Shown here in pieces: positions 3,940 to 39,389 of a DNA stretch of 64,000 nt. The notes beneath the pieces are model-generated. The model made no database searches, was not told the DNA's origin, and worked only from the letters and a program-made list of their open reading frames with translations. Each line of letters opens with the position of its first letter. Positions within the stretch are counted from its first letter, which is position 1. A program made the position numbers and the translations under genes. The DNA is from a virus: the IMG/VR virus record IMGVR_UViG_3300046616_000314, positions 1-64,000 of that record; one strand, written 5' to 3'.

Positions 3940-4016
<77 letters not shown>

Positions 4017-4033
4017 ATAATTCTTTTTACGGC

Positions 4034-4108
4034 GCGCGGTTAGCTCAGTGGTAGAGCGTCTCGTTTACACCGAGAGGGTCGGCGGTTCAAGCCCGTCACC
4101 GCGCACCA
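4034..4108 (+). tRNA. tRNA-Val (TAC)
   Basis: Acceptor GCGCGGT/ACCGCGC, anticodon stem TCTCG/CGAGA around TTTACAC (anticodon TAC), T-arm GGCGG-TTCAAGC-CCGTC with one G-T pair, and CCA encoded. It lies 17 bases after tRNA-Pro, probably in one transcript. Confidence 0.93.
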
Positions 4109-4123
4109 AACATTTCAAAGCAA

Positions 4124-4462
4124 ATGACAGCAACTCTTACATTTCTGTTTAATGATACTCATATTTTCGAACCCGATTATGTTCGTGGTTGGGTTATTAG
4201 TGACGAATACGATACCACGTATCAGTACGATCCCTATAAGAAAACGCGATGTCAAGAACCCCCGATGCGGTCAGAGATCATCGAATGGCTAGATAGTCAT
4301 TACGAAGGCGAATATACTTTCGAAAAATATATGAAGCCGTTAAGCACTAAACGCTTCACACGAGAATTTGGCACGATTGAAATCATGCTGGATAAACCAT
4401 ACGGCTTGCATTGTCATTGCACTGAAGAAATGGCGATGCATTTTCGGTTGAAATTCGGATGA
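4124..4462 (+). CDS. KW-tail family protein, 112 aa
   Basis: Longer copy with EIIEWLDSHYEGEYTF and tail CTEEMAMHFRLKFG. The tail MHFRLKFG is nearly the same as that of the next gene (MHFKLKFG), so the two are a recent tandem pair. It starts 15 bases after tRNA-Val, and an ATGA overlap joins it to the next gene. Confidence 0.78.
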   Translation: MTATLTFLFNDTHIFEPDYVRGWVISDEYDTTYQYDPYKKTRCQEPPMRSEIIEWLDSHYEGEYTFEKYMKPLSTKRFTREFGTIEIMLDKPYGLHCHCTEEMAMHFRLKFG

Positions 4463-4776
4463 CTGGATTTCCTTATGTAGTCGAATACGCGGACTATGCC
4501 CGACAGCACACCGGGTCTTTCCGTATAGAACAGTGTTATCCAATTCATGAATGGTTAGAAGCAAATTATCCTGAGTTGGAATGCGCGTATCATGGCGCCG
4601 GTGGATGGTATGAAAAATACAAGAATTGCCCCGGTAAAAATGCAATTTGTCCCGATAAAGATTTTAGAATTGATATCCTCTATAATCCAAAATACATGGG
4701 CGATACGCGAGATACTTGCCTTGTGAGTTTCAAGGACGAACAGGTTGCCATGCATTTTAAACTAAAATTTGGTTGA
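4459..4776 (+). CDS. KW-tail family protein, 105 aa
   Basis: PIHEWLEANYPELE and tail FKDEQVAMHFKLKFG. The codons of the last residues and the stop (KFG-TGA) form the -35 element of the following promoter, so the tail is again reused as a signal. Confidence 0.78.
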   Translation: MTGFPYVVEYADYARQHTGSFRIEQCYPIHEWLEANYPELECAYHGAGGWYEKYKNCPGKNAICPDKDFRIDILYNPKYMGDTRDTCLVSFKDEQVAMHFKLKFG

Positions 4777-4801
4777 CACGCTCTAGTTCTCAGACTAAGG
4801 T
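4773..4801 (+). promoter_or_regulatory. Promoter of the tRNA-Met/tRNA-Phe unit
   Basis: TTGACA (4773-4778), 17-base spacer, TAAGGT (4796-4801). The block AAATTTGGTTGACACG and the TAAGGT box recur at 57120-57154. Confidence 0.6.
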
Positions 4802-4807
4802 GTTGTC

Positions 4808-4918
4808 AGCTAGGGAGTTGAAAGTAATGGGTGTGGGCAACTGCACTTTGCTCCAAGAGGATGAGGGCACACCGGGAGCCCAAATTTCTCCATGGCGGTG
4901 GCGCCGCTAAAGAAGTTT
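4808..4918 (+). other. Transcribed non-coding leader, possible small RNA
   Basis: About 110 bases between the predicted transcription start and the tRNA-Met precursor, with no open frame of note. It holds short self-complementary parts (GGGC-N9-GCCC and GCGG-N5-CCGC around 4865-4910). I do not recognise a known RNA family. Confidence 0.3.
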
Positions 4919-5016
4919 TGAAGACGTAACGTGGTGGTATAGCTCAGCGGTAGAGCGTCACACTCATAATGTGAATGTCGGTAGTTCAAGTCTACCTACC
5001 ACTACCAACGTCTTCA
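4919..5016 (+). repeat. Inverted repeat enclosing tRNA-Met
   Basis: TGAAGACGT (4919-4927) and ACGTCTTCA (5008-5016) are perfect complements on either side of tRNA-Met. They would extend the precursor into a 9-bp stem below the acceptor, a possible processing signal. Confidence 0.55.
4933..5007 (+). tRNA. tRNA with CAT anticodon (Met, or Ile2 after modification)
   Basis: Acceptor GGTGGTA/TACCACT, anticodon stem TCACA/TGTGA with loop CTCATAA (CAT), T-arm GGTAG-TTCAAGT-CTACC, then ACCA. The first acceptor pair is G-T. Elongator Met and Ile-lysidine types cannot be told apart by eye. Confidence 0.9.
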
Positions 5017-5017
5017 T

Positions 5018-5093
5018 GCTGGGGTAGCTCAGATGGTAGAGCATCGGATTGAAAATCCGAGTGTCACTGGTTCGATCCCAGTTCCTAGCACCA
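5018..5093 (+). tRNA. tRNA-Phe (GAA), first copy
   Basis: Acceptor GCTGGGG/TCCTAGC with two G-T pairs, anticodon stem TCGGA/TCCGA with loop TTGAAAA (GAA), T-arm ACTGG-TTCGATC-CCAGT, and CCA encoded. It starts 10 bases after tRNA-Met. Confidence 0.93.
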
Positions 5094-5111
5094 ATTTTTC
5101 TGCGAGTGACG

Positions 5112-5330
5112 ATGAGAACCATTGTATTTCGTACCCAGGCTGAACGCATTAAGTTGGCGAATTCAGTCTTGGAAATCGGTAGAGACAAGGTGTTCCAACG
5201 TCAAGTGCGTACGTGGATGCATAAGCGTTTATCGCATCCCGCGTGGTTCTCATTTAGTCGTCAATGGGGCGATATGTTGTGTTTCGCCACGGAAGAAGAC
5301 GCCGCACTCTTCAAGTTGAAATGGCTATGA
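5112..5330 (+). CDS. KW-tail family protein, 72 aa
   Basis: MRTIVFRTQAERIKLAN start, WMHKRLSHPAWFSF in the middle and tail FATEEDAALFKLKWL. The start at 5112 is chosen because the open frame upstream runs back into tRNA-Phe. It is among the shortest members and close to a minimal form. Confidence 0.78.
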   Translation: MRTIVFRTQAERIKLANSVLEIGRDKVFQRQVRTWMHKRLSHPAWFSFSRQWGDMLCFATEEDAALFKLKWL

Positions 5331-5653
5331 AAAACTACGACCGCAATGCCAGATTGATGTACGATCCCACTCAGTTGAAGGGGTATCGTATTACCCCGGA
5401 TGGGAAGGGGATCGAAGTCAATCGTTTCGGTCTTCGCTACAGTGAATCTTTTGCCATATCAGGCATCCCCCGCGTGGGGCACACAAACGATTTGGTCGTG
5501 ACCAAGCGGCGCCTTCGCGATGATTCTATTGAAGTCTGGGAATGGATGGAGCGCGTAGGCATCGACATTCATTTGTCAGGCGGTCATGGGGCTCACGTTC
5601 TTGTCGGACTGTCCGATGACGATTTCGCTCTGTTCAAGCTCAAGTGGCTCTGA
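5321..5653 (+). CDS. KW-tail family protein, 110 aa
   Basis: Starts MAMKNYDRNARLMYD inside the K-W codons of the previous gene. It carries WEWMERVGIDIHLSG and ends LSDDDFALFKLKWL. The segment WEWMERVGIDIHLSGGHG is similar to FLWLQERGHLKTIHAFRG two genes downstream, which marks a sub-group with a longer N-terminal region. Confidence 0.78.
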   Translation: MAMKNYDRNARLMYDPTQLKGYRITPDGKGIEVNRFGLRYSESFAISGIPRVGHTNDLVVTKRRLRDDSIEVWEWMERVGIDIHLSGGHGAHVLVGLSDDDFALFKLKWL

Positions 5654-5943
5654 TGCTCGACGCAGTTAGGTTCACTGAGACCGGGGTGATGCTATCCGTC
5701 CCTCGTTCAGAAATGCGATCTGAGTTTCGCTTGGGCTTGCTGCTGTTCATGAAAACTCGTAGCACGCTCATGCGTATCCTTTCTGGGTCGAATGCCCAGT
5801 TCATGTATTTTCTTGAAAAGAATAATATTGAATACGTCATCGGCAACACAGAGCGGTGTAGCATCACCGACTGTTGTTACGTGCCTCTTCATTTCGAAAA
5901 TGTAGATGATCTTGTTTTTGTGAAGATGAAGTTTACCCGATGA
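5653..5943 (+). CDS. KW-tail family protein, 96 aa
   Basis: Ends FENVDDLVFVKMKFTR, a drifted tail with two extra residues. ATG 5653 shares one base with the upstream stop (TGATG). A GTG at 5644 in the same frame lies where the family start normally is (AAGTGG), showing how the junction decays when K is coded AAG. Confidence 0.72.
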   Translation: MLDAVRFTETGVMLSVPRSEMRSEFRLGLLLFMKTRSTLMRILSGSNAQFMYFLEKNNIEYVIGNTERCSITDCCYVPLHFENVDDLVFVKMKFTR

Positions 5944-6245
5944 GTTATGATCGCGATCAGCCACTCTATTTCGAGGATGAAAGCTGTCATTATTACCGTA
6001 ATGAGGCTGGTAAAGAAATTCAGCTTTATTATGTTGGGTTCAGAATTTCGACAGCCCGATATTACGAACGGCATCGAGCCGGAATGATAGTCGATATCGA
6101 AGACGTTGACACACGGGCTGTCCCGGCATTCTTGTGGTTACAGGAACGCGGTCATCTTAAAACTATTCATGCATTCCGGGGACCGCATATTCTGGTCGAT
6201 CTGGAACTAGACGAATATGTGGAATTCAAACTGAAATTTAAATAA
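5940..6245 (+). CDS. KW-tail family protein, 101 aa
   Basis: FLWLQERGHLKTIHAF and tail LELDEYVEFKLKFK. It is coupled to the previous gene by ATGA. The second tRNA-Phe begins one base after its stop codon. Confidence 0.76.
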   Translation: MSYDRDQPLYFEDESCHYYRNEAGKEIQLYYVGFRISTARYYERHRAGMIVDIEDVDTRAVPAFLWLQERGHLKTIHAFRGPHILVDLELDEYVEFKLKFK

Positions 6246-6246
6246 C

Positions 6247-6326
6247 GCCACGATAGCTCAGATTTTTGGTAGAGCGTCGGATTGAAAACCCGAAGGTCAC
6301 TGGTTCGATTCCAGTTCGTGGCACCA
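6247..6326 (+). tRNA. tRNA-Phe (GAA), second, degenerate copy
   Basis: Perfect acceptor GCCACGA/TCGTGGC and good T-arm, loop TTGAAAA (GAA). The anticodon stem TCGGA/CCCGA has an A-C mismatch next to the loop, and the D-loop (AGATTTTTGGTA) is T-rich and enlarged. It could be a poorly charged or decaying copy of the gene at 5018. Confidence 0.8.
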
Positions 6327-6339
6327 ACCTTGAGATTAT

Positions 6340-6720
6340 ATGTACCACCCCGACTATCATTGTGCGCCATACGCTAAACGCCCGCACCACAATCTAACCA
6401 TGATGACGACTCATCTATGGGACGATTACGATGCCCTGGAATCTAAGAATATGGGCTATCACCCTGCGGTACTGAATGATCAAAAGGCTCGTCTAGCATA
6501 TTTCATGGTCAAGCCTAAATTTATTACGCATCTACCCAACATGGGATCGTTAGATTTCTATCATACTCCGTTCGAAGACATCGATGACTATATCAAACGG
6601 TTGGAACGTTACGAAATCTTCGTAAGACGTTTGCATATTCTGCCAGATGGTATGTTGCTGGCACATGATCATGATGACATGAACGATCAATTCTTAGTTT
6701 TCAAACTGCTAGCCAAATAG
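6340..6720 (+). CDS. KW-tail family protein with eroded tail, 126 aa
   Basis: DDYIKRLERYEIFVRRLHIL and a final MNDQFLVFKLLAK, where FKL is kept but KW is lost. It is the last gene of this block, so no downstream start depends on the K-W codons. An ATG at codon 21 (MMTTHLW) is an alternative start. Confidence 0.65.
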   Translation: MYHPDYHCAPYAKRPHHNLTMMTTHLWDDYDALESKNMGYHPAVLNDQKARLAYFMVKPKFITHLPNMGSLDFYHTPFEDIDDYIKRLERYEIFVRRLHILPDGMLLAHDHDDMNDQFLVFKLLAK

Positions 6721-6723
6721 AAA

Positions 6724-6750
6724 AAGCCCCGGCTATCTATTCCGGGGCTT
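6724..6750. terminator. Terminator between convergent genes
   Basis: AAGCCCCGG/CCGGGGCTT stem with a 9-base loop. The five A before it give a U tract on the leftward transcript, so it best serves the 6775 gene, and may also stop rightward transcription. Confidence 0.7.
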
Positions 6751-6774
6751 CCTCTGATTGCTGGGATACCTAGA

Positions 6775-6996
6775 TCAAACGGCTTCAGCCGGATCGGTGT
6801 TCCCGTCTTCGATCAGTTTCTTTTGCTCGTTGATCCAGTCGTTGACGACGATGCGAGCCGAGTCGATGTCGGCAAACGATGTCGTACAAGAGATTTCTTC
6901 AAGATCGTGAAGGTTGCGCAAATGGCGTTCAGCTTCATTGATCATATGTTCGCGCGGAAACCCCGCGCTGATTAGTTCGTTCCACGTTTCAATCAT
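6775..6996 (-). CDS. Small acidic protein of unknown function, 73 aa
   Basis: MIETWNELISAGFPREHM, rich in E and D, probably all helical, with SARIVVNDWINEQKKLIEDG near the end. GGGAG lies 9 bases before the ATG. It shows no KW tail. It is a single-gene unit between its own promoter and the terminator at 6724. Confidence 0.75.
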   Translation of the reverse strand: MIETWNELISAGFPREHMINEAERHLRNLHDLEEISCTTSFADIDSARIVVNDWINEQKKLIEDGNTDPAEAV

Positions 6997-7008
6997 CGAA
7001 AATCTCCC

Positions 7009-7037
7009 TTGAATATATTTTGGTTAGAGTATATAAT
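7009..7037 (+). promoter_or_regulatory. Rightward promoter for 7063-7856
   Basis: TTGAAT (7009-7014), 17-base spacer, TATAAT (7032-7037). Its -10 box shares bases with that of the opposed promoter, so the two directions should exclude each other. Confidence 0.55.
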
Positions 7038-7054
7038 TTATCAAAATACGTCAA
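7028..7054 (-). promoter_or_regulatory. Leftward promoter for the 6775 gene
   Basis: On the minus strand TTGACG (7054-7049), 15-base spacer, TATACT (7033-7028). It overlaps the rightward promoter face to face. Confidence 0.45.
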
Positions 7055-7062
7055 GGTTTTCG

Positions 7063-7473
7063 ATGCGCAAGATTGAAAAGATAACATACTTGGATACTTG
7101 GATTGGTACTTGCCATTACTTGTCCAAGTGGTGTCGCAGTTCAGCCAATTCGACAACCGATGCTAAATCGTCGTATTTTACCGCGAATACCCTCGATACT
7201 ATGTTCGTCTCGCTTCTGCCCTACCCCAAACCTGCATTGTTCATGGTCGTAGAATATATTGACCTTGAGAACATGCAAGGGGGCTCCGATGCATACGAAC
7301 TCAATATCGCACAAGACCAAGAGACCGTGGCACGAGTTGAACGCCTCGGGCATCGTATGAGCTATATGGTCTCGGATGGCATGTCAGGCAAGCGTTTCTT
7401 TCTTGCGGCGTTTCAATTTCACCCTGGCGAACTAGACGAATTTGAAATGGGATTTAGAATATTATGGAAGTAG
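7063..7473 (+). CDS. Distant KW-tail-like protein, 136 aa
   Basis: MRKIEKITYLDTWIGTCHYL start, with HYLSKWCRSSANS recalling the W-C motif, and end LDEFEMGFRILWK, which keeps F, R and W at the tail spacing. The next gene again starts inside the terminal K codons, which supports membership. ATG 7063 is the only good start after the promoter. Confidence 0.65.
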   Translation: MRKIEKITYLDTWIGTCHYLSKWCRSSANSTTDAKSSYFTANTLDTMFVSLLPYPKPALFMVVEYIDLENMQGGSDAYELNIAQDQETVARVERLGHRMSYMVSDGMSGKRFFLAAFQFHPGELDEFEMGFRILWK

Positions 7474-7856
7474 TCGTTGATCATTGGTGGAACTATCTTG
7501 CCAAGACGCAAGAGGTAACACAGAAATTTTATAATAAGCATTCCAAAGAATCTAGGATGGCGGATGACTATCGTTCAGTTCACACACTGAACAACAAGTT
7601 GCTGCTTCGCAAAAACGACAAAGGTGAGAACTATTCTCTCGCTGAACCGCTGTATGCAATCGAGTATCAACAAGGCACTCCCTTTGCGCATTTCGATGTA
7701 GCAACGGCAAATGCTCTAGTGGAACGTTTTGGAAGGCTCGGGATCAAGTCTTATCCGATCCACGTGGCAAACTATCGGTTGGTCATCGGAACCCGCCAAT
7801 CTGTAGACCTTTCCGAACTTTCTGTTATTGCGCATTTGGCGTTCAAAAATCAGTAG
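7464..7856 (+). CDS. Protein of unknown function, 130 aa, coupled to the 7063 gene
   Basis: Starts within the last codons of the 7063 gene with a 10-base overlap, the same geometry as in the KW-tail arrays. Its own end (LSVIAHLAFKNQ) keeps only a trace of the tail. SLAEPLYAIEYQQGTPFAHF and ANALVERFGRLGIKSYP resemble segments of the 7063 protein (MVVEYIDLENMQGG, VARVERLGHRMSYM), so the two are tandem paralogues. Confidence 0.65.
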   Translation: MEVVVDHWWNYLAKTQEVTQKFYNKHSKESRMADDYRSVHTLNNKLLLRKNDKGENYSLAEPLYAIEYQQGTPFAHFDVATANALVERFGRLGIKSYPIHVANYRLVIGTRQSVDLSELSVIAHLAFKNQ

Positions 7857-7863
7857 AAAGTTC

Positions 7864-7894
7864 TTGCAAGATAAATAAAAGTAGGATATAAATA
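7864..7894 (+). promoter_or_regulatory. Promoter region of tRNA-Ala/tRNA-Val
   Basis: TTGCAA (7864-7869), 17 bases, TATAAA (7887-7892). The latter is also a perfect late box TATAAATA (7887-7894), so this unit may be read by both early and late machinery. Confidence 0.5.
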
Positions 7895-7935
7895 AAAAAT
7901 ACCAACGTTGCTTAGTAATGAGCAACACCCTCGGA

Positions 7936-8011
<76 letters not shown>

Positions 8012-8035
8012 AACCTCTTCCATTTTTCGAAATGG

Positions 8036-8110
8036 GCGTCCATAGCTCAGCGGGAGAGCATCACATTGACATTGTGAGGGTCGCAAGTTCAATCCTTGCT
8101 GGACGCACCA
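8036..8110 (+). tRNA. tRNA-Val (GAC)
   Basis: Acceptor GCGTCCA/TGGACGC, anticodon stem TCACA/TGTGA with loop TTGACAT (GAC), T-arm GCAAG-TTCAATC-CTTGC, and CCA. With the TAC gene at 4034, the phage covers valine codons with two isoacceptors. Confidence 0.95.
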
Positions 8111-28968: not shown

Positions 28969-29499
28969 ATGAAGTCTCTCGCTATTGCCGCTCTCGCGGC
29001 TCTTTCTGTTGCCGCTGTTGCGGCTCCTGCCCTGGCTGCTACCGATTACGTTCAAGCGCAAGCTGGCGTCGGTTTCCAAGCCAACCGTGATAACGGTGAA
29101 GCCTATTCGGTCGCGGTCGGTCACGATTTCGGCACTGTCCGTGCTGAAGCCGAAGTGGTTGCTCTGCGCGGTCTGAACGACCCGAAGTTGGGTGATACCC
29201 AATCGAATCTGGCAAACATCAACGTGTACGTTGAGCCGGTCACTGTCTACGGCGTCACCCCGTTCGTCGGTGCTGGCGTTGGCTACGGTTCGCTGTTCGA
29301 CCGTGGTGTCAAGGGCGACCGTAATGGCGTCGTGTTCAACGCTTCGGCTGGTGCGACTTACCCGCTGACTGACAAGCTGACGCTGGTCGGTACTGCGCGT
29401 TATTTCATCGCCAACGACGTTGATTACGTCAAGACGCGCGGCACGCTGGACAACTACAAGGCTTCGGCTCTGACCGTTGGTCTCCGTTACAACTTCTAA
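28969..29499 (+). CDS. Outer-membrane beta-barrel protein, 176 aa
   Basis: A clear Sec signal peptide, MKSLAIAALAALSVAAVAAP then ALA before cleavage at about residue 23. The mature part alternates polar and hydrophobic residues in about eight strands, with glycine-rich turns (GVTPFVGAGVGYGSLF, YPLTDKLTLVGTARYF), and ends LTVGLRYNF with the C-terminal phenylalanine needed for barrel assembly. It has the size of an OmpA/OmpW-like small barrel. Own promoter and terminator. A phage-coded barrel might mask or replace a receptor; that role is inferred. Confidence 0.85.
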   Translation: MKSLAIAALAALSVAAVAAPALAATDYVQAQAGVGFQANRDNGEAYSVAVGHDFGTVRAEAEVVALRGLNDPKLGDTQSNLANINVYVEPVTVYGVTPFVGAGVGYGSLFDRGVKGDRNGVVFNASAGATYPLTDKLTLVGTARYFIANDVDYVKTRGTLDNYKASALTVGLRYNF

Positions 29500-29612: not shown

Positions 29613-29861
29613 ATGAAGTCCAAAATTCCCAAGTCTAGAAATCCTGTGGCGAAAGCTCTGCGGTCTCCGCATCTGGCTCCCAAATCGTTTACCGCCCAAA
29701 AGGGCAAGGGAAGTTATTCCCGCAAGAGCCGGAATGGTGAAAAGCCTTCCGGCTCTTATCATATCTGGGTCCAGTCAAATTTTTGGATGCCATGGGCTTC
29801 GTATATGTCCCGAACCGTAATGATCACGCCATTGTCTTTCGTAACCCATTTCGGATTGTAA
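29613..29861 (+). CDS. arfA: ArfA-like alternative ribosome-rescue factor
   Basis: Residues 10-38 (NPVAKALRSPHLAPKSFT, then AQKGKGSYSRK) follow the ArfA pattern N-A/P-x-x-A-L-x-x-P...K-G-K-G-S-Y-x-R-K. ArfA binds ribosomes stalled at the end of a message without a stop codon and recruits RF2. In bacteria the arfA message carries a hairpin near the end of its frame that yields a stop-less mRNA. Here a perfect 11-bp inverted repeat spans codons 38-49 (29724-29757). The nominal stop at 29861 lies beyond it, antisense to the 29759 gene, so the working protein probably ends at the hairpin, at about 40-50 residues. Confidence 0.7.
   Translation: MKSKIPKSRNPVAKALRSPHLAPKSFTAQKGKGSYSRKSRNGEKPSGSYHIWVQSNFWMPWASYMSRTVMITPLSFVTHFGL
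29724..29757. terminator. Intragenic hairpin in the ArfA-like gene
   Basis: AAGAGCCGGAA (29724-29734), 12-base loop, TTCCGGCTCTT (29747-29757). No U tract follows on either strand. Its place matches the RNase III site or terminator inside bacterial arfA. It also lies one base past the stop of the convergent gene. Confidence 0.65.
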
Positions 29862-30181
29862 TAAGATTTCGTGAACCAGTCATAGACAGCCGGGCGCATC
29901 GCCGCATTGTCTTGGCTCACATGGGTAAATCCTGGCGCGGCGATTCTGTTGAACGGGATGAAGACAGAAATAGCGGGGCTTTTGTCCTCAAGAGAAAAAG
30001 CATCAAATTTTAATTTAAGCAGAGCAACGTCTTGATCGCTCTCGACGTAAAACAAGCAAGTCATCGTGTGGATATCAAAGCCCACGAATTCCACCAGATC
30101 GACACAGTTTTCCGAGAACCATCCGCGTTGGATGTTGCTGAGTTTGGCTTCACTGATGCCGTAATAGGGAAATGGTGTCAT
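29759..30181 (-). CDS. KW-tail protein fused to a second, tailless copy, 140 aa
   Basis: Residues 1-60 form a short member ending FYVESDQDVALLKLKFD without a stop. Residues 65-140 form a second unit with MRPAVYDWFTKSYYNPKWVT, ending DIYEAHGIQKFDWTQI where the tail should be. It reads as two array genes joined in frame. It starts in an ATGA junction after the 30178 gene. Confidence 0.68.
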   Translation of the reverse strand: MTPFPYYGISEAKLSNIQRGWFSENCVDLVEFVGFDIHTMTCLFYVESDQDVALLKLKFDAFSLEDKSPAISVFIPFNRIAAPGFTHVSQDNAAMRPAVYDWFTKSYYNPKWVTKDNGVIITVRDIYEAHGIQKFDWTQI

Positions 30182-30495
30182 CCGAATTTCATCTTGAAAC
30201 TAAACGCGACATCATCGTTGATGAACGAAAACTCTATGGTATCGCTCATGACACGATAGATATCCCATGTTTGGGCATACGGTCCAGCGTTCAGTGTCAA
30301 CCATTCTTCCGTGGGATTGTTAAGGCACCATGTCATATGGACATAGGACACCTTAATAAATGGAACAGAAACAACCGAACCAAGCCAAAGCGGAATACGT
30401 CTGCTTGCTCTTGTTTTCATGGCAGTTTGGCGAGTTATGTTCGTAAGTATCACGCTCAATTGTTCATCAAGCCATGTTTGTTCGACTTTATCCAT
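30178..30495 (-). CDS. KW-tail family protein, 105 aa
   Basis: HMTWCLNNPTEEWLTLNAGP core and tail FSFINDDVAFSFKMKFG. The N-terminus MDKVEQTWLDEQLSVILTNI is coupled to the upstream tail by an eight-base overlap. Confidence 0.74.
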   Translation of the reverse strand: MDKVEQTWLDEQLSVILTNITRQTAMKTRASRRIPLWLGSVVSVPFIKVSYVHMTWCLNNPTEEWLTLNAGPYAQTWDIYRVMSDTIEFSFINDDVAFSFKMKFG

Positions 30496-30715
30496 ATTTC
30501 AAAATCGCTTTCACGCAATCCTCATCGGACTTGAATGCGATTATCGAAACATTTTCTGGTTTGAATTCCAGATAGACCCAATTGTCTTGGGTCTCATCGT
30601 TAAGCCATTTGACGATAGCAGAAGTCAGACGCCCTTCAGGACCGACGACGTTGCGCAACGCACCCGTCGAGACACCCGGTTCCAAATACCAAACACTCAC
30701 GTTGCGCCTTTCCAT
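30488..30715 (-). CDS. KW-tail family protein, 75 aa
   Basis: AIVKWLNDETQDNWVYLEFK core and tail AFKSDEDCVKAILKYG. The start ATG lies in the K-W codons of the upstream gene although that gene continues three residues further, giving a 19-base overlap. Confidence 0.74.
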   Translation of the reverse strand: MERRNVSVWYLEPGVSTGALRNVVGPEGRLTSAIVKWLNDETQDNWVYLEFKPENVSIIAFKSDEDCVKAILKYG

Positions 30716-30921
30716 TTCAATTTTGCTTCGATGGCGTCATTGAGTTTTTTGAACCCGATTACGGCAACGTGCCGGTCAGCATCATAAAATTCATAGAACC
30801 AACGAGAGCCATAGTTCTCGCGGAGAAACTTACCAAGTTGCGTCACCAAATGTCCATTCCGTGTGCCACCGCTCGGAAATTCTACCAGATGAGGCGTGGC
30901 GTGCCATTTAGGACTGTTCAT
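30697..30921 (-). CDS. KW-tail family protein, 74 aa
   Basis: MNSPKWHATPHLVEFPSGGT start (ATGA junction), GKFLRENYGSRWFYEFYDAD core and tail FKKLNDAIEAKLKWKGAT. The terminal GAT extension shows that the K-W start site for the next gene is kept even when the stop has moved. Confidence 0.74.
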   Translation of the reverse strand: MNSPKWHATPHLVEFPSGGTRNGHLVTQLGKFLRENYGSRWFYEFYDADRHVAVIGFKKLNDAIEAKLKWKGAT

Positions 30922-31205
30922 GCCCCACCCCACTTCAAGAGGAACAATGCCACGTCTTCTTCGGTGTGACAAAACACATGAAGATAATATTTTCTTTTTT
31001 CGGTAGTGTAAGACGCCACTGGTTCGATGAACGGTCCATCAACGAACATTCCAGGGTGATTTTCTAGACACCAATCGTCAATTTTATTACCCCAATTGCC
31101 CGTGAACGGATATTCACTAACCGGGCAATAGAGTTTGATGAAATACAAACCCACGCCAGGAGAGATCGGAGCCTTTCGTTTTTTGACCGTGTACCTCATA
31201 GCCAT
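30918..31205 (-). CDS. KW-tail family protein, 95 aa
   Basis: IDDWCLENHPGMFVDGPFIE core and tail CHTEEDVALFLLKWGGA. Standard MAM start overlapping the upstream gene by 10 bases. Confidence 0.76.
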   Translation of the reverse strand: MAMRYTVKKRKAPISPGVGLYFIKLYCPVSEYPFTGNWGNKIDDWCLENHPGMFVDGPFIEPVASYTTEKRKYYLHVFCHTEEDVALFLLKWGGA

Positions 31206-31504
31206 TTCAACCGAAACAACACGGCGTCTTCATCCGTAGAAAAACGAATGAAAGCCCTCCGGTTAGCGTCGTCCCTTGCCCACGCGAAACACATTTCGGG
31301 AATGTCATTGAGATATTGCCGACACCATTTCCATACCCTGTACTTGGGTGTGGTCTCAATGAGAAGAGTGGGAAAGTCGCTGTAAGCATCGGCGGGAATG
31401 TTGTCCCTGCCAATCACGGAAGAAAGTTTATACACCTTATCGAACGGGAGGTTGATCCAACCCGCCCGTTCCAACTCTCGCTGAGATTTATATTCTTTAT
31501 TCAT
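31196..31504 (-). CDS. KW-tail family protein, 102 aa
   Basis: VWKWCRQYLNDIPEMCFAWA core and tail FSTDEDAVLFRLKWL. First KW-tail gene of this leftward array; it follows the cREC gene with a one-base overlap. Confidence 0.76.
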   Translation of the reverse strand: MNKEYKSQRELERAGWINLPFDKVYKLSSVIGRDNIPADAYSDFPTLLIETTPKYRVWKWCRQYLNDIPEMCFAWARDDANRRAFIRFSTDEDAVLFRLKWL

Positions 31505-31833
31505 CAGCGTTGCGCCAGATAGTTATTCAGCAAGCCTTCGATGTTGGCTTTGCCTGCCACATTCTGACTGTGAACGTAGAATGAAAAATCATCAGGGATG
31601 AATTCACCATCCGCGCTCAAATCGACGTTCACTAACCACCACGCGAAATCATAGCCAGACTCTTCAAGGGTCTCGTCTGATTTCAAGCCAAGGTCATGAT
31701 CGAAACTGATGAACGCCGGGCATCCAAATGCGCTCACGGTGGATATGGCTTGATAAACGTTGCGCACGATTTTCCATTCCTCGCCATCGTCGGGCGGGAA
31801 ACGTTCGTCATCGATAAAAAGTTTGTAGGTCAT
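31504..31833 (-). CDS. Cyclic-phosphate processing receiver (cREC)-like protein, 109 aa
   Basis: MTYKLFIDDERFPPDDGEEW, then CPAFISFDHDLGLKSDETLE and FYVHSQNVAGKANIEGLLNN. The series F-I-D-D-E-R-x-P, I-S-F-D-H-D-L-G and H-S-x-N-x-x-G is that of the cREC receiver-like domain, proposed in the literature to process cyclic phosphate ends in RNA repair or defence contexts. The histidines and aspartates of the D-H-D and H-S-x-N motifs would form the active site. ATGA coupling at 31833 to the upstream gene. Confidence 0.75.
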   Translation of the reverse strand: MTYKLFIDDERFPPDDGEEWKIVRNVYQAISTVSAFGCPAFISFDHDLGLKSDETLEESGYDFAWWLVNVDLSADGEFIPDDFSFYVHSQNVAGKANIEGLLNNYLAQR

Positions 31834-32339
31834 CGATTGGGGTCCAACAAAATTGAAACCCATTCACACACGGTATCCCAACAACCCAATTCGTCGCAGG
31901 CGTCTTTGTTCAGGACAATGAAACCCGGTTGGTATCTGCTATTGGTGTGATCGCACGCCAACCAACCAACAGTCGGTTCGTCTTCGCGATAGGAAAACAA
32001 ATCGCCCTTGTTTGCCAATTGGGTTTCGCCAGATGAGCGAAGCAGGAAATCCCCAATATGTTCTTTGATGCCGATCAGAGCCAATAGCATCGGCGGCTTA
32101 TGCGCAGTCGTTGTTTCCATGGTTTGGAAAGGATTGATCATCAAATATGTGTAGATGGCTTCTTCTTTTGCGCGTTCTTGGATATATGCAATCGCACGAT
32201 CTTTCGTGCCGAAATCATATTCGGCATAGTACATTTCATCCAACTGGCATGGGATTGCATAGCTACCACCGCTTTTCAGAGTGGCTACTTTTCTTCTCGT
32301 TTCATCAACGAGCACAATACGGTTCCAATTGGCGTACAA
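31830..32339 (-). CDS. Protein of unknown function, 169 aa
   Basis: TTG start at 32339 with GGAG seven bases before it. YYAEYDFGTKDRAIAYIQER, LLALIGIKEHIGDFLLRSSG and PGFIVLNKDACDELGCWDTV. It heads the operon of the cREC protein and five KW-tail genes. No known domain. Confidence 0.68.
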   Translation of the reverse strand: MYANWNRIVLVDETRRKVATLKSGGSYAIPCQLDEMYYAEYDFGTKDRAIAYIQERAKEEAIYTYLMINPFQTMETTTAHKPPMLLALIGIKEHIGDFLLRSSGETQLANKGDLFSYREDEPTVGWLACDHTNSRYQPGFIVLNKDACDELGCWDTVCEWVSILLDPNR

Positions 32340-32393: not shown

Positions 32394-32470
32394 CGATTTC
32401 CTGACGAAAAATGGTTGACGGATATAATTAATTTTCGTAAGCCATGCCATATATCGTTTTGAGATTGATA

Positions 32471-33460
32471 ATGGCACGCCCAAATTCTCTTCCTAAGAAA
32501 CCCACTCTTTCCAAGCTGACCGATGAAGAACAAATCGCTATCGCGGCGATTCGCTTCAATCCTGCGCTGTTCAAGAAAATCAAGAACCCGACGCAGGCTG
32601 TCTTGGAATATGGGTTGGATTCCTATCCGCAATTGATCAGCAAGATTGATAAACCAACCAACGAAATGTGGCTCCGCGCCATCAAGCGTTCGGATGGTAG
32701 CGTGATCAAATATCATCCAAATCCTTCCGAAGAGTTGCAGTTCGAATCAATTCATCGTTCTCCGATGAATTTGAAGTGCATCAAGGATCACACTCCGCTC
32801 GTTGCCAACTTGGCTATTCGTTACAATGGCTCGGCGTGGCGATATGTGAAGGCGTGCCATAAGACGGATGAGCTTATGGAACTAGCGGCTCGCCAGTATG
32901 GGTTCCAAATACGGCATTGCAAGAACCCAACCGAGAAAACGATCATGTCGGTTTTGCGTCGTGATCCTGGGCAAATTCGTTATCTTAAGAAACCGTCGAT
33001 TAAGGCGCAATGCACGGCATTTGTGACTTCGCCATATCTCATCAATTCGTATTACCAAAACGACTATCGCGAAACGATGCCCGAAGACGTTGCGTTGGCT
33101 GTCATCCGAGAGAACGGCTTAACACACCATTTGGGTCATCGGGCGCGCAACCCGCGCTATATTGCGTATGCCAGAACGACATTGACCGTCGCTCAATATA
33201 GAAAAATTGAAAACAAGATTACTGAATATAATCGCGTTTTGAAAACTTTGACTAAGCAACAATGCGATTGGTTGATTAAGACCAAGACCAAATTTCATTT
33301 AAAATATGAAGATATGTACAAAGTCGAAGTGCCCGTGTCTGCGACGGCGAAGCCATCAATTCGTCGTCGCAAACCGGCTGTACAAACTATTTCATACGCC
33401 TTGCTATTGTCATTCGACAACGCCGACGATCTCATGATGTTCACGCTCAAATTCGGCTAG
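32471..33460 (+). CDS. Large repeat protein ending in a KW tail, 329 aa
   Basis: Built of helical repeats of about 25-30 residues with the pattern A-I/V...P-x-x-I/L-x-x-I-K-x-P-T (FKKIKNPTQAVLEYGLDSYP, QLISKIDKPTNEMWLRAIKR, QIRHCKNPTEKTIMSVLRRD, QIRYLKKPSIKAQCTAFVTS), like DUF4116-type repeats. After a basic linker it ends LLLSFDNADDLMMFTLKFG, a KW tail. The tail is thus a portable module. ATG 32444 is an alternative start directly after the promoter motif. Confidence 0.75.
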   Translation: MARPNSLPKKPTLSKLTDEEQIAIAAIRFNPALFKKIKNPTQAVLEYGLDSYPQLISKIDKPTNEMWLRAIKRSDGSVIKYHPNPSEELQFESIHRSPMNLKCIKDHTPLVANLAIRYNGSAWRYVKACHKTDELMELAARQYGFQIRHCKNPTEKTIMSVLRRDPGQIRYLKKPSIKAQCTAFVTSPYLINSYYQNDYRETMPEDVALAVIRENGLTHHLGHRARNPRYIAYARTTLTVAQYRKIENKITEYNRVLKTLTKQQCDWLIKTKTKFHLKYEDMYKVEVPVSATAKPSIRRRKPAVQTISYALLLSFDNADDLMMFTLKFG

Positions 33461-33910
33461 GTCTCGCATCATATCGCGATGACCCTGGCGACGTGCCGCA
33501 ACACGCATCCGACGCTTTGCGTGTTGCGCGGCATGGACGCGCTGTCGATAGCACGTGCCATTCCGGCGAACCATGTGATGAACTTTTTCCCACATATAAT
33601 GTAGGTCTGCGCCATCGGAATCGTAGTCGGGATTCCACTCGTAGCGGACCTTCTTGACCATCGCCGGGTAATACTCGTAGCGATAGGCTTCCTCATGGTC
33701 GCCTTCACAATTCCGAAAGACGTATGGGACTTTACGATATTTTTCTCCCATTTCCTCGTACTCAATGCGGAAGCGTACCGGTTCGGGAACTGGTGGCTTG
33801 GGAAGTTTTAGATAGTTGTAATCGGATAATTTGAAACGCCCGTCCTTGGCTTTTGCACAATGGGCATGATTATTGCGATGAAGAATCAATTTACGAATGG
33901 TGCGAGACAC
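33410..33910 (-). CDS. Basic H/R/Y-rich protein, 166 aa
   Basis: GTG 33910 with GGGAGAG upstream is preferred to TTG 33928. It is very basic at the end (HAAQHAKRRMRVAARRQGHR) and tyrosine-rich in the middle (EEAYRYEYYPAMVKKVRYEW). It may bind nucleic acid. It overlaps the convergent 32471 gene by 51 bases. Confidence 0.65.
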   Translation of the reverse strand: MSRTIRKLILHRNNHAHCAKAKDGRFKLSDYNYLKLPKPPVPEPVRFRIEYEEMGEKYRKVPYVFRNCEGDHEEAYRYEYYPAMVKKVRYEWNPDYDSDGADLHYMWEKVHHMVRRNGTCYRQRVHAAQHAKRRMRVAARRQGHRDMMRDLAEFEREHHEIVGVVE

Positions 33911-34269
33911 AGGTTCTCTCCCTCTCAAAAGGTTGCGGTTAGGTCATGGGGATGCCTTTCTAAAACCATGCGGTTTTAGTGCGCGTGAACGTTCGTCATA
34001 AAGCTAATTGCAGTGGCAATAGCTGCGATACGTTCCTATGAGAGAAGGTATAACTGCACCATAATGTCGTACATACGACCAATTATATGTGTCTTGTAAG
34101 CCTTCTTAATATGAAACACTGAGTAAAGTATGTGTTTCGAATCTCATACTACCATCGAACGAATTTTTGTCAAGAAATTTTAGTTCATTAACGAATATGG
34201 TTGAGAAATCGTTAAAATCGTATTCGTAACCTTAATGTCGCAAAAAAATTTACACTCGCTTAACCAGCG

Positions 34270-34296
34270 AAAAACCCAAGTGAGACGGGGGTTTTT
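34270..34296 (+). terminator. Terminator-like stem before the secretion cassette
   Basis: AAAAACCC and GGGTTTTT with an 11-base loop; the U run is inside the right arm. It would close any transcript from the non-coding region. Confidence 0.5.
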
Positions 34297-34352
34297 GCCT
34301 CCTCTACGTTCAAATGTGGCGATAGCGTGGTAAAAAAATGATCAGATCATGC

Positions 34353-34380
34353 TTGACTAATGGCTAACGACCGGTGTTAT
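34353..34380 (+). promoter_or_regulatory. Promoter of the CsgG/HfaB cassette
   Basis: TTGACT (34353-34358), 16-base spacer, TGTTAT (34375-34380), 43 bases before ATG 34424. Confidence 0.45.
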
Positions 34381-34423
34381 CTCCGCTCCACCGACTGGGA
34401 CGTTTGGGGACTGGAAAAAACAC

Positions 34424-34900
34424 ATGAAAATCAAGCTCGCACTTATTGGTGCGCTAAGCCTAGCACTTGCCGGGATCGCACATGCCGAGACCGAAAAGAG
34501 TGCTTGGCAATTTCGCACTCCCGCTGAAACTTCTGTAGCGCAAAACAGCGTTGTTTTGATGCAGCAGAAGCAGAACGACTACTACAAGATGTACAAGAAT
34601 GGCGGCTCTGGCGTCATTGGCGGCGGAAGTGGTCTGTTCGGTTCGTCAACTTCGGCGACCAACAACTTCACGCAAATCGTCAACCAGAACACCACCAACA
34701 ACAACTGTTCTGCAACGGGCGCCGGATCGGCTCTGACGTGTGGTTCGTCTTCTACCAATACGAACAACGTCAATCAGACGACCACGGACTCGACCGCTGA
34801 TGCGAACAACACCATCACCGGTAACACCATCACGAACCAGCCCTCGACCACGACGAATTCGGGCAACACCGGTTCGACGGTAACTGGGGGCAACCAATGA
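34424..34900 (+). CDS. Secreted N/T/S-rich protein, possible fibre subunit (HfaA-position)
   Basis: Sec signal MKIKLALIGALSLALAGIAH with A-H-A cleavage at about residue 21. The mature N-terminus (EKSAWQFRTPAETSVAQNSV) is followed by about 90 residues made almost wholly of N, T, S, G and Q (NNFTQIVNQNTTNNN, TNTNNVNQTTTDSTADANN). Only two cysteines (NNNCSATGAGSALTCG) could form a disulphide. This composition suits a secreted amyloid-like or adhesive fibre protein. It is translated with the CsgG-like channel (ATGA overlap) and is first in a three-gene order that recalls hfaA-hfaB-hfaD. Confidence 0.7.
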   Translation: MKIKLALIGALSLALAGIAHAETEKSAWQFRTPAETSVAQNSVVLMQQKQNDYYKMYKNGGSGVIGGGSGLFGSSTSATNNFTQIVNQNTTNNNCSATGAGSALTCGSSSTNTNNVNQTTTDSTADANNTITGNTITNQPSTTTNSGNTGSTVTGGNQ

Positions 34901-35889
34901 ACAAGCGTAACCTTTTCCTGACCGTCGCTCTTATGATGTCGATGGCAATTCCTGCCGTGGCTTCCGCCGGAAGCAAGAAGGCAGTCAACCCGATGAACCC
35001 ACGCAATGCGATGGTTCTGGGATCGGCGCCGGAAAACAACGTGACCGCGACTCAAAACGGTTTCGTCTGTTTCGCCAACTACCTCGCCAAGGACCCGCGC
35101 CGCCCGGTCTTCTCGGTTGGTCGCCTGCGCGATGACTCGGGAAAGTTTTCGAATTTCGCCAATGAGCCGGGTTCGGCTGGCGGCTACGAAATGACCCAAG
35201 GTCTGTCCAACATGGTCTATACGGCTCTGGGCAAGCTGGCTCCTGACTTCGCCATCGTTGAGCGCACGGATACCGCAATCGTGGACTCCGAAATCTCGCT
35301 CGCCAAGGAAAGCCTGTTGGGCGATCCTTCGGAGCAAGGCACGTGGGCTGTCGATAAGAACGGGCAAAAGATTTTGCTCGGCAAAGGTCTTCGGTCCTTG
35401 ACCGGCGGTCAATTCCAGGGTGTTGATTACTACATCACTGGTGCGATCACCGAAATCAACTACAACATTTCGTCGGGCGGCGCCCAACTCAAGGTTCAAG
35501 GGATCGGCGGCGGCAATCGCGTCTATTCCATGAGCATTGCGATGGACCTTCGCATCGTGGATGCCCGCACGCTCCGCGTGGTCAAGACCGTCTCTGAACG
35601 GAAGAAGATCAGCGGTAATGAAACCGAATTTGGTGTCTTTAATTTCCTCGGAGATTATCTGATCGACATCAATGCGGGTCGTAAGCTTCAAGAGCCCATT
35701 CAACTGGGCGTGCGAGCGACTATGGAATCAGCCCTACTCAAGTTGGTCGGGGCTGCATATGGCACGAATTACGGGGAAACTTGTAGCTCGTATGCCGCCA
35801 CTACCTACGGTCAAGTTGTGCCTGTCACGACTCCCGTAGCCGACAACACGGCTGATCCCATCGCGGATAAGCTGTCGGCGTCGAAGTAA
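34897..35889 (+). CDS. CsgG/HfaB-family outer-membrane secretion channel
   Basis: 330 aa with signal peptide MNKRNLFLTVALMMSMAIPA-VASA. Family features: RPVFSVGRLRDDSGKF at 69-84, MTQGLSNMVYTALGKLAPDF at 99-118, AIVERTDTAIVDSEISLAKE at 119-138, VDYYITGAITEINYN at 176-190, then GGGNRVYSMSIAMDLRIVDA and TLRVVKTVSERKKISG. CsgG exports curli subunits and HfaB holdfast-anchor proteins through the outer membrane. No lipobox cysteine follows the signal, unlike CsgG, so it may not be a lipoprotein. Both neighbours are secreted, repeat-rich proteins and are the likely cargo. Confidence 0.82.
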   Translation: MNKRNLFLTVALMMSMAIPAVASAGSKKAVNPMNPRNAMVLGSAPENNVTATQNGFVCFANYLAKDPRRPVFSVGRLRDDSGKFSNFANEPGSAGGYEMTQGLSNMVYTALGKLAPDFAIVERTDTAIVDSEISLAKESLLGDPSEQGTWAVDKNGQKILLGKGLRSLTGGQFQGVDYYITGAITEINYNISSGGAQLKVQGIGGGNRVYSMSIAMDLRIVDARTLRVVKTVSERKKISGNETEFGVFNFLGDYLIDINAGRKLQEPIQLGVRATMESALLKLVGAAYGTNYGETCSSYAATTYGQVVPVTTPVADNTADPIADKLSASK

Positions 35890-35947
35890 GACGTACCCTT
35901 TAAAAAGCACGGGCATTCCGCTCGGCATAGGAAAGAGACCCTACAAT

Positions 35948-36811
35948 ATGCGTAATCTTCTCATCGCGGCTTCTGCCGTAGCTCTGTTCGCTGGCATCGC
36001 TACTCAAGCTTCGGCTACGGGCGACTCCTACGGCGTCCAACTGAACCTGGGCACCCTGCAACTGGGTCAGTCGAACGTTCATCGCACGTCGGTTGGCGGC
36101 AAGCTGAACCTCTCGACCGCCGCTGTCGGCACCAACCTGTCGGTCCTGTCGGACATCCCGGCGACGACTGACCACACCAGCAACAGCGGTCGTACCAACG
36201 GCGACGCTCGCGTGGCTTCTCTGCAAGTCAACGCCCTGACCGCCCAAATCGCGACCACCAGCGTCACTCGTTCGTCGGTCGGCGCCGATCTGACCACCAG
36301 CACGCAAGCCATCGGCAACGCTGTTGATGTCGAATCGACCCACAACTACGTGTCGAACGGCTACGTCACCAGCAACACCGATTTCGACAAGTCGATCAGC
36401 CTGCAAGCCAACGTCGGCGCCGTGCAACTCGCCACCACCGACATCGCCCGCGTTTCGGTCGGTGACGATCTGGACGTGAGCACCATCGCTGTCGGCAACA
36501 CTTCGTCGTTCTTCGGCGCCAAGGGCGTTGCGGCTGCGACCGGTCAACTGAACCTGGGTACGGTGCAACTGGCTTCGACCGACTTCACTCGCTCGTCGGT
36601 CGCTGACAACGCTTCGTTCTCGACTTCGGCTTTCGGCAACGTGGCGTCGTACACCGGCAACACCGTCGATCCGCTGACCGTCCAAGTCAACGCTCTGACC
36701 ATCCAAGGCGCCAGCACCAACATCGGTCGCTCGTCCTTCGGCGGTAACGTTTCGGTCGATACCTCGGCGGTCGGTAACGCGATCACCGTCTCGACCAACC
36801 TGAACAACTAA
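35948..36811 (+). CDS. Secreted five-repeat protein, possible amyloid or adhesin (HfaD-position)
   Basis: Signal MRNLLIAASAVALFAGIATQ-ASA, then five imperfect repeats at about 30-64, 91-126, 151-185, 199-232 and 244-278. Each reads L-N/V-x-L/V-G/A-x-x-Q-x-A-x-T-x-x-x-R-S-S-V-G...S-T-S-A-V-G-N (for example LQVNALTAQIATTSVTRSSV and TSTQAIGNAVDVES). Regular Q, N, S and hydrophobic spacing suggests a beta-solenoid or amyloid, as in curlins. Cargo of the CsgG-like channel by position. GC-rich and codon-regular compared with neighbours, which hints at recent acquisition. Start at ATG 35948, 58 bases after the channel gene. Confidence 0.75.
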   Translation: MRNLLIAASAVALFAGIATQASATGDSYGVQLNLGTLQLGQSNVHRTSVGGKLNLSTAAVGTNLSVLSDIPATTDHTSNSGRTNGDARVASLQVNALTAQIATTSVTRSSVGADLTTSTQAIGNAVDVESTHNYVSNGYVTSNTDFDKSISLQANVGAVQLATTDIARVSVGDDLDVSTIAVGNTSSFFGAKGVAAATGQLNLGTVQLASTDFTRSSVADNASFSTSAFGNVASYTGNTVDPLTVQVNALTIQGASTNIGRSSFGGNVSVDTSAVGNAITVSTNLNN

Positions 36812-36841
36812 GACCCACACCCAGCCGGTTTGAGTTGTGAG

Positions 36842-36878
36842 AAGAGGGTAGGGGAGAAATCTCCTACCCTCTTTTTTA
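36842..36878 (+). terminator. Terminator of the secretion cassette
   Basis: AAGAGGGTAGG/CCTACCCTCTT stem followed by T runs. The convergent gene 36876 ends at its far edge. Confidence 0.88.
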
Positions 36879-37511
36879 TTTGCCGTACCGAAGTTTGAAT
36901 TCGATGATGTCATCTTCATTTGAAAAATAAAATACGATCTCGGCTTTTGCATCATCCCTACCGGGATCATCCCATTCAGAAATCGACCAGTAGCCGTTGT
37001 GTGGTTTCTGAATTTCTTTGCGCTTCAGAAGCCGACAATCTTTGACTGTCAGCATCAGCGACACCGGAGAGAACTTGTGACTCGCTGCACGGGCGAAGGT
37101 CACTTCCTCATCGAAGGGCACGAACAGGGTCCTAGGATCGAACCAGAAGCCCTCGGAATTGTGCCAGGGTAGTCCGTTGTCAAAACGGCTCTCCCTAAGC
37201 TGACGGAGGTTCCTACGCACGTTGTGGACTACGGATACGCGGCTGTACATCAGATCATGGACCTGCCGGGCGTTATACATTTGCTTGAGGCGAATGCGAA
37301 TCTGTTCGAAGGTAAAGAACCGGACGGCGGTCATGTGCCGGTTGTTGCTCATCCGGTACAGCCATTGCGCGGCATTCTTATCGCGCTTGTAAGCCCGTGT
37401 GACGGGGTTATCGCAGTGGTGGTGCTGGTTGAACGCGGCGATGCTTTCCGCCTTGCGTGCAGCCTTGGAGGCTCGCCAATCGATGATCTCTTGATATTGA
37501 TGACGTGCCAT
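36876..37511 (-). CDS. KW tail on a basic 190-residue protein, 211 aa
   Basis: Basic, histidine-rich N-terminal half (IDWRASKAARKAESIAAFNQ, HHHCDNPVTRAYKRDKNAAQ), then EIVFYFSNEDDIIEFKLRYGK. The tail is well kept, Y for W. No other member has a similar N-terminal part. Confidence 0.72.
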   Translation of the reverse strand: MARHQYQEIIDWRASKAARKAESIAAFNQHHHCDNPVTRAYKRDKNAAQWLYRMSNNRHMTAVRFFTFEQIRIRLKQMYNARQVHDLMYSRVSVVHNVRRNLRQLRESRFDNGLPWHNSEGFWFDPRTLFVPFDEEVTFARAASHKFSPVSLMLTVKDCRLLKRKEIQKPHNGYWSISEWDDPGRDDAKAEIVFYFSNEDDIIEFKLRYGK

Positions 37512-38564: not shown

Positions 38565-39389
38565 ATGACCGCGACCATCAATGTTTTCAGTATGCCTCAA
38601 GTTGTGACTATGACGTTCGCACCCACGTACGGAGACGGCTTAATGAACTACCCAGTGAATCGGACGGATTTCACAGTACCGAAGGGTCTCACGACCGAAA
38701 TTCATTTCTTCGTCAAAGACGTTGATCGCCGCGCAGTCAACTTAGCAAATTCGAACGCTGTTCCTACCGCCGTCATCGTAGACACGCATCGCCAAAAAAC
38801 GCTTCTAGAGCGCGACATGGACCTTATCAACCCGACCAAGGGTTTGTACATGCTGACCCTGGAACCTAGCGATGTTGTGGATTGGCCACTAGGTCAATTG
38901 GAGTATAGCGTGATCGTAGAGCGCGAAAACGGTACTAAGGTCTTCCTCTACACAGATCGCGATTATGGTCCCTACAGTGCCCTCAAGGTCGTTCACGGAC
39001 CCTATGCGACGCCCAAGGAAGCCATTGAAATTCCGGCTGATCAATTCACGCCGCAATCATTTAATTATATGAACCAGTTTCCCGAATACATTGCTGGCGC
39101 GTTCCAGGGCGCGGCGCAAGTGGGCAACATCAGTGGTATGCAAAGTGCCGTGTTCCACATGACCGGTTTCATCGGCAATCTGTTGATCCAAGGCTCTTTG
39201 GAAGATCAACCTAGCTCCAACGATTCAGATTGGTTCAACGTCAACACCGCGACATTTTCGGAACCGACTGATGGACCGATCTACATGGATGCTATCGGTA
39301 ACTTGGTGTGGGTTCGTTTCCTAGTTCAAGTTTTGGGCTTCGATACATTCGCTAATACTTTCCAAGGTGTTACTTACCGAAACGATTGA
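38565..39389 (+). CDS. Virion structural protein, baseplate/fibre type, 274 aa
   Basis: The N-terminal half (DFTVPKGLTTEIHFFVKDVD, TLLERDMDLINPTKGLYMLT, LGQLEYSVIVERENGTKVFL) has the layout of an immunoglobulin-like domain of phage baseplate or upper-baseplate proteins. The C-terminal half (VFHMTGFIGNLLIQGSLEDQ, NLVWVRFLVQVLGFDT) resembles phage beta-sandwich domains that occur in T4-like and cyanophage structural proteins. The late promoter at its start supports a virion role. Confidence 0.7.
   Translation: MTATINVFSMPQVVTMTFAPTYGDGLMNYPVNRTDFTVPKGLTTEIHFFVKDVDRRAVNLANSNAVPTAVIVDTHRQKTLLERDMDLINPTKGLYMLTLEPSDVVDWPLGQLEYSVIVERENGTKVFLYTDRDYGPYSALKVVHGPYATPKEAIEIPADQFTPQSFNYMNQFPEYIAGAFQGAAQVGNISGMQSAVFHMTGFIGNLLIQGSLEDQPSSNDSDWFNVNTATFSEPTDGPIYMDAIGNLVWVRFLVQVLGFDTFANTFQGVTYRND

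Follow-up and report, generated by a model that had tools for sequence, protein, structure and literature searches.

A cassette of three co-directional genes, here called A, B and D, lies within the window, by which we mean the whole 64,000-nucleotide stretch of viral DNA that was analysed (Table 1). An original prediction, made from the letters alone, had proposed three consecutive genes with Sec signals, followed by a strong terminator, encoding an N/T-rich small protein, a CsgG/HfaB-family channel and a five-repeat protein, all carried by a phage. The open reading frames fall exactly at the positions given there, and each of these identifications is upheld by the results below. The start of gene B lies inside the stop of gene A (an ATGA overlap), and a gap of 58 nt separates B from D. 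On our own reading of the list of open reading frames, the nearest likely flanking genes (33410-33928 and 36876-37511) are both on the minus strand, which gives the cassette the appearance of a separate insert that brings its own leader and terminator. When the folding of the terminator hairpin was compared with that of shuffled sequence, no shuffle was equally good. A sigma-70 scan of the leader gave no more than the shuffled expectation, with no strong plus-strand match near gene A, and a hairpin within the leader (34262-34306) was not significant against shuffles. The third-position GC of A, B and D (0.65, 0.66 and 0.77, respectively) is raised relative to that of the other window genes sampled (0.44-0.64), which is compatible with either later acquisition or strong expression.

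Table 1. Features of the A-B-D cassette (positions in the window)
Feature	Position	Strand	Description
Leader	33929-34423	+	495 bp, non-coding, AT-rich; expected promoter site
Gene A	34424-34900	+	158 aa; secreted protein (predicted); predicted signal peptide, conserved mature N-terminus, N/T/S/G-rich tail
Gene B	34897-35889	+	330 aa; CsgG/HfaB-family outer-membrane channel subunit (predicted); PF03783
Gene D	35948-36811	+	287 aa; secreted protein (predicted); five beta-rich repeats with A-x-G-N/T motif
D repeat 1	36032-36157	+	42-aa repeat
D repeat 2	36218-36343	+	42-aa repeat
D repeat 3	36398-36523	+	42-aa repeat
D repeat 4	36539-36664	+	42-aa repeat
D repeat 5	36677-36802	+	42-aa repeat
Terminator	36839-36876	+	Intrinsic; closes the cassette; 17-bp stem, -27.8 kcal/mol, z = -6.4

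The virus record that contains the window is 561,116 bp long. Phage-type DnaB, primase and helicase genes are found in the window, and the DnaB protein is 52% identical to that of the Agrobacterium jumbo phage Atu_ph07 (490 kb) and 45-47% identical to those of Sinorhizobium phage Phosso and the PA5oct-like phages of Pseudomonas; by this sequence comparison the 561-kb virus is a relative of Atu_ph07. A search of the same phage collection found no B homologue in Atu_ph07, Phosso or the PA5oct-like phages, which argues that the cassette is accessory. A 499,572-bp relative (DnaB 58% identical) does carry the cassette, in another neighbourhood: B alone aligns, and no shared surroundings were found. 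Elsewhere in the window, six tRNA genes (Pro, Val, Met, Phe, Ala and Val) lie on the plus strand within the first 8.1 kb (3940-8110), and a run of small genes occupies the minus strand at 29759-32339. Several genes of this run share a C-terminal tail resembling (D/E)A...(F/L)KLK(F/W)G, which also ends the genes at 32444-33460 and 36876-37511, and one of the run (31504-31863, minus strand) encodes a cREC_REC cyclic-phosphate processing receiver domain (PF20274, 3.9e-20).

All three cassette proteins begin with Sec-like N-termini in which A-x-A cleavage sites can be recognised by eye (AHA/ETE in A, ASA/GSK in B and ASA/TGD in D). A crude signal rule flagged eight of the 132 open reading frames of 100 or more residues in the window, and A, B and D account for three of the eight. 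Five kb from the cassette, on the plus strand at 28969-29499, is a gene for a 176-aa outer-membrane beta-barrel protein with a Sec-like signal (PF13505, 1.9e-10), and its presence fits a wider surface-remodelling programme of the phage. The barrel also shows a weak likeness to a cyanophage outer-membrane protein family.

The family assignment of B comes from several profile comparisons. The protein matches the Pfam CsgG model PF03783 at 6e-19 (68.6 bits, against a gathering cut-off of 20.8), a match that a whole-genome search finds as well, and the profile of the B family matches the solved CsgG structures 4uv3 and 6l7a at 3e-13. Its match to the NCBIfam HfaB model NF037935 (2.3e-49, 168 bits) falls under the equivalog cut-off of 300; for comparison, three genes of Caulobacter OR37 score 405-438 with this model, and Sphingomonas and Variovorax genes score 194-199. 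The best phage family for B is phrog_20175 (1.6e-52), for which no function is annotated. Judged by these matches, B is a member of the CsgG/HfaB family of channels. The start of the protein, MNKRNLFLTVALMMSMAIPAVASAGSKK, differs from that of CsgG in that the place where the signal would be cleaved lacks a lipobox cysteine, so that insertion into the outer membrane is not assured. The same cysteine is absent from the B proteins of CcrPW and locus L008 and present in those of Kabachok and of a 61-kb phage fragment (L099). In this last case B (L099 7890-9299) has a C-terminal extension with a weak, below-cut-off likeness to SPOR peptidoglycan-binding domains (E 0.008).

Viral and bacterial relatives of B surfaced only after the alignment had been widened by the 500-kb relative described above and one Variovorax sequence, the scans with the single protein and with the first alignment having given none. 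In a tree with the CsgG proteins of E. coli and Pseudomonas as outgroup, five phage B representatives form one clade (98/97), which stands beside Sphingomonad and Comamonad genes (92/86), and Caulobacter HfaB groups with other Alphaproteobacteria in a separate clade (100/100). The branch leading to the window B is long (1.39), and its exact place inside the phage clade is therefore unsure; the B protein of the 61-kb fragment falls separately from the phage clade, at a position that the tree does not resolve.

Protein A, which belongs to the phage family A2, combines a conserved mature N-terminus of about 40 residues (AWQFRTPAE..., with the core WQFRTPAE) with a tail in which N, T, S, G and Q make up 77% of residues 60-158 and charged residues only 2%. 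A profile built from five phage A N-termini matched 57 of 3,688 bacterial and plasmid open reading frames at E<=1e-3 (best 1e-8). By a simple distance rule, 48 of the 57 lie within 600 bp of a bacterial B gene, and several of the remainder adjoin a B gene whose start was called too far upstream. Altogether, about 50 bacterial loci have a member of the A N-terminal family immediately upstream of a B-like gene. Since the phage profile finds genes beside bacterial B homologues, A is, on sequence grounds, a regular partner of this type of channel. The WQFR start is also, by eye, like the start of CsgF (FQFRNP) and lies about as far from the signal cleavage site. The statistics give this likeness no support: it is not significant, CsgF models do not match A, a comparison of A with the CsgF profile gave P 0.07, and E. 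coli CsgF matched weakly at E 14 with FQFRNP alone aligned. A CsgF origin of A is kept simply as a lead. Searches with the A-family N-terminal profile against HfaA of Caulobacter OR37 (E about 150, or none) and with A against solved structures gave no match.

In protein D, the five repeats begin at residues 29, 91, 151, 198 and 244, and each closes with A-[IVF]-G-[NT]. Any two repeats are identical at 15-20 of 42 positions, against a mean of 4.0 (sd 1.9) for shuffled sequences, and the repeats are seen in the DNA as well. Enrichment of the related motif A-x-G-N/S was seen in Caulobacter HfaD, several bacterial D genes and the D proteins of most of the phages tested (z 4.2 for the window D, P0003, and 4.5 for HfaD), and the motif is absent from CsgA and the curlin-like proteins of phage Melnitz. 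The original prediction considered that the cargo might be amyloid; at E<1, Pfam gave no match to either cargo protein, curlin repeats included. A profile of the phage D repeats reaches genes near B in Alphaproteobacteria (E down to 3e-7), including one in Caulobacter OR37 (8e-5), and gave no match to HfaD itself (L101). An AlphaFold model of D from a 10-row alignment is nearly all beta, its strands forming a stack, with a mean pLDDT of 70.6 and repeat cores reaching about 95; folding without an alignment was poor (pLDDT 50). A Foldseek search with this model returned no match at E<=0.001 in the PDB or among viral models, and its top rows, which mix adhesin folds with beta-helices at TM values under 0.2, are uninformative. 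No paralogue of D was found elsewhere in the 561-kb record.

The order A-B-D recurs in the Caulobacter phages CcrColossus and CcrPW, three Brevundimonas phages, the 500-kb phage and the 61-kb fragment, and a secreted repeat-rich D is present in every phage cassette examined. The window DnaB has no match in CcrPW or Kabachok, so that A, B and D evidently remain linked even where this replication protein is not shared. The cassettes of CcrColossus, CcrPW and the Brevundimonas phages (Dolichocephalovirinae) contain all three genes, identically arranged, with B 42-46% identical, but belong to another phage lineage and have other flanking genes. The nearest bacterial relatives are operons of Sphingomonas, Novosphingobium and Variovorax, which share the A-B-D layout and the conserved A N-terminus. 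They differ in that the bacterial B is mostly about 430-480 aa long with a C-terminal extension, which the jumbo-phage B lacks, and in that the D position is often taken by a low-complexity protein of 1000-1650 aa, rather than the 287 aa of the window phage; in Variovorax this protein is annotated as "S-layer family". Relatives of the cassette also occur on plasmids, in Variovorax (L011) and in Vibrio and Photobacterium (L014 and L012), with the gene order B, D-like, A-like on the two Vibrionaceae plasmids.

A model for the function of the cassette can be built by analogy with the holdfast anchor of Caulobacter, where HfaA and HfaD are not targeted to the surface unless HfaB is present, and the anchor complex is formed there (PMC6707917). 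The cassette would be a self-contained accessory transcription unit of the jumbo phage, made during infection, and all three products would leave the cytoplasm through the Sec system of the host. B would then form a ring-shaped, CsgG-like channel in the outer membrane, with the conserved N-terminal segment of A pairing with this type of channel, and A and the beta-repeat protein D would pass through the channel or dock on it and remain on the cell surface, a dependence like that of HfaA and HfaD on HfaB. From the sequence evidence, the cassette probably equips the infected cell with an outer-membrane channel and has it export A and D to its surface. We put the probability that this unit displays A and D through B as a coat or adhesin, with altered surface contact as the result, at roughly 0.6. 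What the phage would gain is a guess. The likeliest benefit would be changed surface contact, either through attachment between cells or to surfaces, which brings new hosts, or through receptor masking, which acts against competing phages and self-adsorption. A more elaborate version, which we hold only tentatively and consider on balance unlikely, is a mobile, streamlined jumbo-phage module in which B has shed the C-terminal extension and sometimes the lipid anchor, A combines a CsgF-like plug with a tail that forms fibres, and infected cells are coated by D, folded as a compact beta-solenoid. Such a module would be a second, independently evolved, phage-run system for surface fibres, beside the curli modules of marine phages.

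A pore could also serve release. For the methylophage Melnitz, a CsgGF pore has been published with a proposed role in lysis (PMC9004378), and by extension B might be an outer-membrane pore that opens late and helps to disrupt the envelope, with A as its plug. The constant association of A with this channel family, and the resemblance by eye of its start to that of CsgF, the lining of CsgG, are in keeping with such a role. However, it leaves unexplained both the conserved, secreted D and the occurrence of the same operon in bacterial chromosomes, and we consider it improbable.

The phage might instead have captured a true hfaABD anchor that boosts the holdfast attachment of a stalked host. The original prediction drew attention to the hfaA-hfaB-hfaD order, and that part stands: the two systems share three genes for secreted proteins, arranged as small protein, CsgG-family channel and repeat protein, and both HfaD and the window D have A-x-G-N turns. 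Furthermore, the HfaB profile does find B, Caulobacter and Brevundimonas phages carry the cassette, and the TgrL protein of phiCbK is known to promote holdfast (PMC10688885). Holdfast identity, in contrast, was not supported, in view of the sub-threshold HfaB score and of the position of the phage B proteins beside Sphingomonad and Comamonad genes, outside the Caulobacter HfaB clade. Of the neighbouring genes, likened to hfaA and hfaD, A did not match HfaA, and the repeat profile of D gave no significant similarity to HfaD. Capture of a genuine anchor is accordingly improbable. Caulobacter vibrioides OR37 itself has, on top of its standard hfaABD (L101), a second hfa-like cluster (L095 3386-6933), in which two HfaB genes in tandem are accompanied by one D-like and one HfaA-like gene.

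We know of no report of episomal pseudolysogeny for phages like Atu_ph07, and it is very doubtful that the cassette serves to coat carrier cells or make them adhesive so that an episomal phage persists in place of lysis, even though Dolichocephalovirinae, some of which have the cassette, are described as episomal pseudolysogens in one report (PMC12195562). It is equally hard to credit that A and D are virion components such as head or tail decorations, with B incidental, because, although D, in its beta structure and its repeats, is like many fibre proteins and a virion structural family (phrog_14467, 4.6e-13) is matched by the neighbouring gene at 38565-39389, the signal peptides of A and D are unusual for proteins assembled in the cytoplasm, their homologues adjoin B in bacterial chromosomes, and no phrog virion family matches either protein significantly.

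Surface display of A and D through B thus remains the preferred reading, and it can be set against what is already established for phages. The original prediction of a new way for a phage to alter the host surface was overstated, since curli modules that include a channel and fibre genes have been published for phages: CsgF and CsgG were described in pelagimyophages, with sibling capture proposed (PMC7029224), and complete curli modules with fibre genes have moved between phage families (PMC9599517). Single genes of the present cassette have already been annotated in CcrColossus, CcrPW and Kabachok. The accessible parts of the phiCbK/CcrColossus genome, jumbo-phage comparative and Brevundimonas phage papers make no mention of curli, CsgG or HfaB, and no description of this A-B-D module was found in the open-licence literature. 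The cultured carriers, CcrColossus and the Brevundimonas phages, open its function to direct testing.

The curli (T8SS) modules of pelagiphages and Melnitz consist of CsgF, CsgG, CsgA/B, FecR and AC. Unlike these, the window cassette has no recognisable CsgF, FecR or cyclase, no CsgE-like partner was found in its three-gene set, its cargo is free of curlin repeats, and its channel sits on another branch of the CsgG family; the carriers are jumbo phages of alphaproteobacterial type, as opposed to marine T4-like phages and podophages. What the two share is a phage-borne CsgG-family channel beside secreted repeat proteins, together with transfer between phage families, as the A-B-D module, too, is suggested to move between unrelated large phages. 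With phage curli modules already known, the new element, as judged by sequence, is a separate, mobile branch within the CsgG family, carried by jumbo phages and paired with cargo other than curlins. The comparison suggests that outer-membrane secretion channels and surface proteins are supplied by phages from at least two CsgG-family branches, one in marine phages and one in jumbo phages.
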